Source: Tessaracoccus sp. MC1679 (GTDB lineage: Bacteria > Actinomycetota > Actinomycetes > Propionibacteriales > Propionibacteriaceae). Taken from it: a DNA stretch of 64,000 bases. The stretch spans positions 186,001 through 250,000 of the forward strand of contig NZ_JACJGB010000006.1 in the NCBI RefSeq assembly GCF_014164775.1. Reading direction: 5' to 3'. Within the stretch, counting starts at the first letter, position 1. Every line of letters starts with the position of its first letter. This document shows, piece after piece, positions 708 through 2,169 of this stretch. The notes under the pieces were generated by a model, which ran no database searches, had not been told where the DNA came from, and was given only the letters and a program-made list of their open reading frames with translations. The translations under genes and the position numbers were made by a program.

Positions 708-773
708 ATGCCTTTGCTCGTCGTCCGCCTGTGGGTGGACCTCTGCCGCGTCCAGGTCGGCAGCTGTCGCTGA
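708..773 (+). CDS. Short Cys-containing leader peptide (candidate attenuator uORF)
   Basis: This is a 21-codon ORF with an ATG start at 708 and a TGA at 771-773. A clear Shine-Dalgarno GGAGG (695-699) sits 8 nt upstream. The peptide ends in RLWVDLCRVQVGSCR. The arrangement R-x-W/H-V-D-L-x-R plus a C-terminal Cys-Arg resembles short actinobacterial leader peptides found upstream of sulfur and cysteine genes, some of which act as cysteine-responsive attenuators. The two Cys codons are TGC 744-746 and TGT 765-767. The stop codon is 46 nt before the symporter start. A small hairpin, CGCTG 768-772 with CAGCG 779-783, overlaps the stop codon. The family resemblance is from memory and regulation is inference. 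Confidence 0.6.
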   Translation: MPLLVVRLWVDLCRVQVGSCR

Positions 774-819
774 ACGCGCAGCGCCAACCCGCCACACCCC
801 CAGCAAAGGAATTCCCTTC

Positions 820-2169
820 ATGTCAACAGCCACGTCTGAGCGCGCCCTCGAGGCGACGCCGCAGCCACGCAAACCCTTCTACACCAACCTCGGCTTCCAG
901 ATCGTCGTCGGCCTCATCGTCGGCCTGGTTCTCGGCCTGATCGCCGTGGCCATCGGCCCCGACGGCGAGGAACGCAACTGGCTGGCCACGCTCCTCTCCG
1001 AGGTGGGCAACGCCTACGTCAGCCTGCTCACGCTCCTGGTGGTCCCGCTCGTCGTGACCGCCGTCATCTCCTCCATCTCCCGACTCCGTGAGGTGGCCAA
1101 CGCCGCACGGCTGGCCGTCCAGACGCTCGTCTGGTTCGCCATCACGGCTTTCGCCAGCGTGGTTGTCGGCATCGCGGTGGGGCTCCTCTCCGCGCCCTGG
1201 CTGACCGCCGGCGTCAACGGGGAGGCGGCCGCCGAGCCGAGCCGCGTGGGCTCATGGTCGGCGTTCCTCCTCGGGCTGATCCCCAACAACTTCCTCGGCC
1301 TCGGCGTCCGCATCTCCGGCGACCCCGAGGCGGGCTTCACCGCAGCCGCCAACTTCTCGGTCCTCCAGGTCCTCCTGATCTCAATCCTGTTCGGCGTCGC
1401 CGCGCTGAAGGTGGGCGACAAGGCCGCCCCGCTGGTCGGGTTCATGGAATCCGCCCTCTCGGTCATCCAGAAGGTCCTCTGGTGGATCATTCGGTTGGCG
1501 CCCATCGGCACCGCGGCGCTGATCGGCAAGGCTGTCGCCACCTACGGCTGGACCTCTCTCGCCTCGCTCGGCTCGTTCGTGGTGGCGCTCTACATCGGGC
1601 TCATCATCGTGTGGGCGGTGGTCTACCCCGCCATCCTCAAGGCTCACGGCCTGAGCGTGCGTCAGTTCTACCGCAACGTCTGGCCCGCGATCTCCCTGGG
1701 CTTCGTGACCCGTTCGTCGATGGGCACCATGCCGGTCACCGAGCAGGTGGTGGAGAGGAACCTGGGCGTCGCGCGCCAGTACGCGAGCTTCGCGGTGCCG
1801 CTGGGCGCAACCACCAAGATGGACGGCTGCGCCGCGGTCTTCCCTGCGCTGGCCTCGATCTTCGTGGCCCAGTTCTACGGCATCGACCTGGGCGTCACCC
1901 ACTACCTGCTGATCGCGTTCGTCGCGGTGCTTGGGTCGTCGGCCACAGCCGGCACCACGGGCGCGACGGTGATGCTCACACTGACGCTGTCCACCCTGGG
2001 CCTGCCGCTGGCCGGGGTCGGCCTCCTGCTGGCAGTGGAGCCCATCGTCGACATGGGCCGAACGGCGCTCAACGTCACCGGCCAGGCGCTGGTGGCCGCA
2101 GTCGTGGGCAAGCGCGAGGGCATCCTCGATCAGGCGACCTACGACGCCGAACCCCAGTTCAGCGCCTGA
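820..2169 (+). CDS. Dicarboxylate/amino acid:cation symporter (DAACS family), possible cystine transporter
   Basis: This is a 449-residue polytopic membrane protein of the GltP/GltT/TcyP family. It has about eight hydrophobic helices plus the two re-entrant loops. The serine-rich hairpin RSSMGTMPVTEQ is near residue 298. The substrate and cation site motif TTKMDGCA is near residue 332, where classical glutamate carriers have NMDG. The start at ATG 820 follows an AAAGGA Shine-Dalgarno. The frame stays open upstream, but that part is leader sequence. Family members move glutamate, aspartate, C4-dicarboxylates, serine or cystine with protons or sodium. The Cys-bearing leader peptide directly upstream favours cystine (TcyP-like), which is inference. 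A hairpin follows the stop. Confidence 0.85.
   Translation: MSTATSERALEATPQPRKPFYTNLGFQIVVGLIVGLVLGLIAVAIGPDGEERNWLATLLSEVGNAYVSLLTLLVVPLVVTAVISSISRLREVANAARLAVQTLVWFAITAFASVVVGIAVGLLSAPWLTAGVNGEAAAEPSRVGSWSAFLLGLIPNNFLGLGVRISGDPEAGFTAAANFSVLQVLLISILFGVAALKVGDKAAPLVGFMESALSVIQKVLWWIIRLAPIGTAALIGKAVATYGWTSLASLGSFVVALYIGLIIVWAVVYPAILKAHGLSVRQFYRNVWPAISLGFVTRSSMGTMPVTEQVVERNLGVARQYASFAVPLGATTKMDGCAAVFPALASIFVAQFYGIDLGVTHYLLIAFVAVLGSSATAGTTGATVMLTLTLSTLGLPLAGVGLLLAVEPIVDMGRTALNVTGQALVAAVVGKREGILDQATYDAEPQFSA

Follow-up and report, generated by a model that had tools for sequence, protein, structure and literature searches.

A short conserved leader gene that probably acts as a cysteine gauge before a TcyP-like symporter in Tessaracoccus

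Mycobacterial polycysteine leaders, for which Canestrari et al. 2020 is the work cited, are said to be cysteine-responsive; their leader RNA is reported to mask the downstream Shine–Dalgarno (SD) sequence until ribosome stalling frees it. In Actinobacteria, leaders with runs of Cys codons were described in 2005 before the cys and cbs operons, with no obvious terminators and with a suggestion of Rho (PMC1262725). A Rhodobacterales cysS leader contains tandem Cys codons that are mainly UGC (PMC8632094), and a reannotation of Streptomyces lividans gives eight leader peptides, none of which has an RxxVDL...C motif (PMC8079986). In TnaC of E. coli, Trp12 and Asp16 are four residues apart, and in the arrested ribosome the A site holds the stop codon that lies nine codons after Asp16 (PMC8429421 and PMC10941005). 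The kind of ORF treated here is not new: NCBI has a curated family for it under the name of putative leader peptide, and the Cys-run leaders of 2005 and the mycobacterial polycysteine leaders are further precedents. In the literature searched, which included few subscription papers, we found no account of how such ORFs work or of a fixed codon in them, nor any link to a DAACS symporter, any split between peptide-level and codon-level constraint, or a constant UGU.

The locus lies in the window, by which we mean the whole stretch of DNA analysed, 64,000 nucleotides of Tessaracoccus sp. MC1679. Positions of residues and codons are counted from the Asp of the leader motif (D+2, D+9). The features are as follows.

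694-700, + strand: GGGAGGG, containing the leader SD sequence GGAGG at 695-699, 8 nt 5' of the ATG
708-773, + strand: leader ORF, MPLLVVRLWVDLCRVQVGSCR*, with ATG at 708 and TGA at 771-773; 21 codons plus stop, 66 nt
726-743, + strand: codons of the R-L-W-V-D-L (RxxVDL) motif, whose R, V, D and L codons have pN 0.04 against pS 0.65 in 30 congeneric leaders
744-746, + strand: first Cys codon, TGC, at D+2, a variable position
765-767, + strand: constant Cys codon, TGT, at D+9, the proposed sensor and stall codon; TGT in 139 of 139 distinct leaders and 110 of 110 NF042934 loci
774-804, + strand: C-rich, G-poor spacer that follows the stop codon of the leader; candidate entry region for Rho, proposed from its base composition
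805-810, + strand: symporter SD sequence, AAAGGA
820-2169, + strand: DAACS symporter gene, TcyP-like, a probable cystine/cysteine importer (449 aa, PF00375)

A preliminary description of this DNA had pointed to the 21-codon ORF, its GGAGG site and the gap of 46 nt between the leader stop and the ATG of the DAACS gene (820), all of which the sequence bears out. It had also named an ORF without conservation in relatives as one outcome that would speak against it; the symporter is present in 30 of 39 congeneric genomes, and the leader is present in every one of those 30. The last 15 residues of the leader were scored against all forward upstream frames at 110 symporter loci. Apart from the window's own locus, 22 of the remaining 109 outscored the best (28) of 2,200 dinucleotide shuffles; these 22 include L011 and L017, which are second copies of L040 and L048, as well as L019 and L039, which are without Cys at D+9. 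Judged by these comparisons, the 21-codon ORF is a real leader. No match to a sigma-70-type promoter was found at 560-900 of the window. In its own genome, a scan for VDLCR-type motifs and an NF042934 search up to E 10 found no further leaders: the three other VDLCR-type matches sit inside reading frames of 192, 122 and 289 codons, and the only two other NF042934 matches are weak (12.8 and 10.3 bits), that of 12.8 bits overlapping a 356-codon frame on the same strand.

The closest relatives of the symporter belong to Tessaracoccus, Arachnia and other Propionibacteriaceae. After the removal of five duplicates (L011, L013, L014, L017 and L021), a pattern scan that demanded a Cys between D+5 and D+9 placed a leader at most 330 nt upstream in 34 of 105 symporter loci, which come from Propionibacteriaceae, Cellulomonadaceae, a Tsukamurella and one Corynebacterium (L070), with leader-to-symporter gaps that range from 35 to 174 nt. 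Since no such leader was found in 71 of the 105 loci, 24 Arthrobacter and 19 Corynebacterium records among them, the symporter gene does not need the leader everywhere. A motif scan without the Cys requirement, likewise cleared of those five duplicates, gave 40 matches, 35 of them with Cys at D+9; the five without it are a second match in L036 and those in L039, L086, L088 and L092. L037, which has the motif and the Cys at D+9 inside the 400 nt scanned, was missed by the Cys-requiring scan.

Other elements precede some of the orthologues. At 17 of the 110 symporter loci, from Arthrobacter and related genera (L058, L071, L072, L076, L077, L080, L081, L083, L086, L089, L091, L092, L100, L104, L114, L118 and L119), a conserved element is found instead, running from GAGA through GGAATAA to TAAYATTTCTCAA and measuring 111-112 nt in 15 of the 17. 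Its sequence could represent either paired operators or an RNA element; five of these loci were scanned with Rfam, and none of them matched a family. Taking the McbR box to be TAGAC-N6-GTCTA, candidate McbR-like boxes with one mismatch stand before the Corynebacterium orthologues L065, L070, L075, L078, L079, L093, L101, L112 and L117; with one or two mismatches allowed, they occur before a number of Corynebacterium orthologues and also before those of L064 and L095. Such boxes suggest that the orthologue is there under another form of sulfur control; in L070, the box and the leader are both present. In an Rfam scan of 12 symporter loci, the sole match was an FMN riboswitch at 769-931 of L050, about 2 kb upstream of an Arachnia symporter gene.

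The pattern of constraint within the leader separates a peptide from a codon. We aligned 29 leaders, chosen with a pattern that contains Cys and with N-termini partly set by hand; the residues shared by all of them are the Arg, the Asp and the Cys at D+9. In many leaders the D+2 Cys is swapped for R, L, M, G, Q, A or V. Among the 30 congeneric leaders, pS is 0.65 and pN 0.04 for the R, V, D and L codons of the motif, pS is 0.50 and pN 0.47 for the seven codons from D+2 to D+8, and both are 0 for the D+9 Cys codon, which never differs, wobble base included. This profile indicates that the motif is kept as a peptide, that the spacer between is free in sequence and constant in length, and that the Cys is kept as a codon. 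By this sequence comparison, what is conserved is Arg-x-x-Val-Asp-Leu plus one Cys exactly nine residues past the Asp. The preliminary description had proposed a check of the conservation of Arg-x-Trp/His-Val-Asp-Leu and the C-terminal Cys; Arg-x-x-Val-Asp-Leu and the D+9 Cys are kept. Its further proposal, that ribosomes stall at two Cys codons, is not supported, the D+2 Cys being often replaced and the D+9 Cys alone being constant, in one codon.

That codon is TGT in all 139 distinct leaders with a Cys at D+9, a set that comprises 33 symporter leaders, 95 others and new ones from the genus set, all preselected for that Cys. The other Cys residues of the same leaders are encoded by 25 TGT and 121 TGC codons (Fisher p 1.5e-55 against the D+9 TGT, a value that overstates independence and is not to be taken literally because the sequences are related), and the Cys codons of the downstream genes by 36 TGT and 223 TGC. 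In 136 of the 139 leaders, a C or a T follows the D+9 TGT; after the Cys codons of downstream genes, this holds for 97 of 259. When the reading frame of 110 NF042934 loci, which are high-scoring matches and not a random draw, was taken from the HMM match, the Cys stood at D+9 in all 110, encoded by TGT throughout and followed by C or T in 106. For five clipped loci in this reading, many offsets were scanned and the shortest peptide was kept; L144 and L145, unmatched in one NF042934 pattern scan, are included in it, as are ten loci unmatched in another and L233, which that scan had in a wrong frame and did not count among its 68. Because the D+9 Cys was preselected and is favoured by the HMM, and the codon was unselected, more weight falls on the fixed codon than on the fixed spacing.

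Two causes of the TGT preference were considered and set aside. RNA pairing, as predicted, does not account for it: the wobble U is more often unpaired than average (0.47 versus 0.37 in 102 leaders), its predicted partners are scattered, with the commonest offset in 5 of 102, and a change of U to C would stabilise the fold slightly on average. A pattern search of the host genome, which would miss an unusual second gene, found one tRNA-Cys, with anticodon GCA (one of 20 loci fetched from 30 pattern matches). This anticodon reads UGU by G-U wobble, so that, with the single tRNA found, UGU would be wobble-read. The theory of selective charging of isoacceptors bears on codon choice (PMC1183508), and it is unlikely as the cause here if one tRNA-Cys serves both codons.

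We propose that the 21-codon gene probably acts as a cysteine gauge. In the mechanism that we consider fairly probable, a cysteine-responsive leader, in which RxxVDL primes a stall at UGU and the output is by Rho, would control a TcyP-like cystine/cysteine symporter. Without help from the peptide, one UGU would make a weak sensor. The constant distance from Asp to UGU suggests that RxxVDL acts in the exit tunnel at the moment when UGU occupies the A site; a ribosome positioned at UGU would hold RxxVDL in the upper exit tunnel and be prone to arrest. If Cys-tRNA ran short, the ribosome would stall at this single sensor codon, since the tRNA-Cys (GCA) found reads UGU only by wobble. Stalled one to a few codons before the stop, it would shield the C-rich spacer and block Rho, and the symporter would be transcribed. 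With cysteine abundant, the ribosome would complete the leader and depart, and Rho would terminate the transcript early.

The Rho output is the least certain step. The first 40 nt after the stop of the 34 symporter leaders have mean fractions of 0.50 C and 0.21 G, compared with 0.34 and 0.33 in 34 window controls (p 5e-11), and the same 40 nt after 68 other leaders have 0.45 C and 0.29 G (p 1e-7); the 70 symporter loci without a leader have 0.29 C and 0.22 G. In the window leader, no intrinsic terminator was found at 560-900. A spacer rich in C and poor in G, together with the absence of an intrinsic terminator from that interval, makes a Rho-dependent output the best fit, and the C-richness favours it, although C-richness alone is no proof of a Rho site.

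A classical codon-starvation attenuator, in which two Cys codons would slow the ribosome and the peptide sequence would be irrelevant, accommodates the two Cys codons of the window leader, the two or three in several relatives and the runs of up to six in some NF042934 leaders. It does not accommodate the frequent replacement of the Cys at D+2 by another residue, the peptide-level selection on RxxVDL, or a D+9 Cys that is present in all 110 NF042934 loci and is the only Cys position with a fixed codon. Because the peptide motif is under strong purifying selection, the leader is no plain codon-count attenuator, and we regard this explanation as unlikely.

Translational attenuation, by which the leader RNA would mask the symporter SD sequence until a stalled ribosome exposed it, draws on a pairing at the locus itself. 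CCTTTGCT, at the leader start (711-718), is exactly complementary over 8 nt to AGCAAAGG, over the symporter SD (802-809); the predicted fold pairs them, and L040 has the same CCTTTGCT/AGCAAAGG pair. With a ribosome placed at UGU, the predicted SD opening rises from 0.30 to 0.37 in the window and from 0.45 to 0.64 in L043. However, the predicted mean over the 34 symporter leaders is unchanged (0.478 without a ribosome and 0.476 with one at UGU); for the 14 leaders that lie no more than 60 nt from their gene, it is 0.480 without and 0.488 with. The window fold is ordinary (z -0.82), and the gaps of 35 to 174 nt also speak against such an arrangement. As a general mechanism, release of a sequestered SD by a stalled ribosome is not supported by the predicted openings, which show no mean effect despite the rises in single cases, and we hold it to be an improbable account of these leaders.

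More doubtful still is a reading in which RxxVDL would form, in the tunnel, the binding site for free cysteine or another sulfur metabolite, much as TnaC binds tryptophan, and UGU would only set the site of arrest. The geometry resembles that of TnaC, with Arg and Asp four apart and Asp nine codons before UGU; if the ligand were cysteine, the expected direction would be opposite to that of TnaC, because the genes seem to be sulfur-acquiring and arrest should rise when cysteine is scarce. We give this reading little credence. That the ORF is a chance frame or a piece of an upstream DNA element, as its shortness and the lack of a sigma-70-type promoter match at 560-900 might suggest, is scarcely credible in view of the synonymous change around a fixed peptide motif and the leader in 30 of 30 congeneric loci.

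The 449-aa symporter matches PF00375 (SDF) with 328 bits, and in BLASTP it scores 179 bits with TcyP (33% identity), 156 with GltP (28%), 147 with DctA (26%) and 67 with SstT. Like TcyP, it has in its TM7 region an insertion of one residue (GC-A) as well as [YF]PA, and it also has EP-[IL]-[IV]-DMGRTALNV; it differs in that the actinobacterial clade has KMDG where E. coli TcyP has GQNG. Among the NCBIfam models, DctA (185 bits, cut-off 513) and GltP (168 bits, cut-off 638) score highest, both far short of the cut-off and with no TcyP model listed, and the solved structures best matched are aspartate/glutamate transporters. In a tree, TcyP, GltP/DctA and the actinobacterial clade are separate on long branches. 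We take NCgl2463 and cg2810 of C. glutamicum to be one gene, the orthologue of the window symporter. NCgl2463 imports cystine or cysteine according to a review (PMC10821248), and cg2810, a symporter of the same family, is placed in the McbR and CysR sulfur regulons, with cyst(e)ine uptake suggested, in a 2008 report (PMC2580772). Because TcyP gives the highest BLASTP score of the four E. coli DAACS proteins compared, import of cystine or cysteine is likely, in support of the substrate first proposed for it.

The leader belongs to a wider set of ORFs. Against the NF042934 model, "putative leader peptide", it scores 18.8 bits (16.8 in the genome search; cut-off 27), and it contains R-x-x-[VI]-D-L and a D+9 Cys near the stop, the feature drawn here from NF042934 matches. 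These matches span many families of the class. Of 118 genomes sampled from the host's class, 77 contain NF042934 matches above the cut-off; a sample of 119 genomes from the phylum gave matches at E 0.01 in eight, of which seven belong to the class and the eighth is below the cut-off. Pfam assignments of the genes after 15 leaders (7 hand-picked of 24, and 8 of 10 regularly spaced, with L165 and L216 left out) gave three each of rhodanese, NIR_SIR (sulfite/nitrite reductase type) and DUF4395, and two each of NMT1-like binding proteins, other solute-binding proteins and luciferase-like monooxygenases. From these families, we infer that the downstream genes serve sulfur assimilation, and the proposal in the preliminary description of an actinobacterial RxxVDL...C leader kind before sulfur genes agrees with a leader that is conserved here and whose likes precede genes of sulfur-type families elsewhere. 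In the flanks examined of the 110 NF042934 loci, no relative of the window symporter was found. In L122, L124 and L125, NF042934 leaders join RxxVDL to runs of five or six Cys codons, with TGT at D+9 too.

A broader idea, which we offer tentatively, is that the RxxVDL-x7-Cys(UGU) leaders may form one arrest-peptide class gated by cysteinyl-tRNA, with a tunnel motif spaced as in TnaC, a single, wobble-read and hypersensitive UGU, a 3' context of C or T and possibly a sulfur metabolite bound in the tunnel. If so, each leader would control its own operon, and ribosomes would coordinate the sulfur regulon. If our reading of the window leader is right, a change of UGU to UGC and a change of the Asp would be sharp tests of single-codon amino-acid sensing by the ribosome, and the leader would hint at cystine or cysteine as the substrate where related DAACS genes of actinobacteria are concerned.

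Among the known systems, the cis_reg_atten family NF042934 shares with the window leader the RxxVDL core, the D+9 Cys as TGT and the form of a small ORF before a gene, one of a sulfur-type family in the NF042934 cases and a probable cystine/cysteine importer in the window. The window leader departs from the family in the residue at D-2, which is Trp here and His or Ala in 93 of 95 NF042934 leaders, and in a score below the curated cut-off. The leaders described in 2005 are likewise actinobacterial, stand before sulfur genes and lack obvious terminators, and the Rho idea is common to both; as described, those of 2005 are Cys runs before cys/cbs operons and do not precede a DAACS gene (PMC1262725). 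The mycobacterial polycysteine leaders resemble the window leader as short Cys-bearing ORFs before cysteine-related genes, with a presumed response to cysteine. The window leader, however, has two separate Cys codons and no Cys run, its constraint falls on one UGU and a peptide motif, SD release is unsupported on average, and its GGAGG site argues against a leaderless transcript, a trait of the polycysteine attenuators. With TnaC, the likeness is geometric: if UGU is taken as the stall codon, it follows the Asp by nine codons, as it does in all 110 NF042934 loci, and the Arg stands four residues before the Asp; a shared ligand is not implied. The other residues differ, and a Cys sense codon stands here where TnaC has a stop codon, while for the window leader, as for TnaC, we propose that the arrested ribosome would block Rho.
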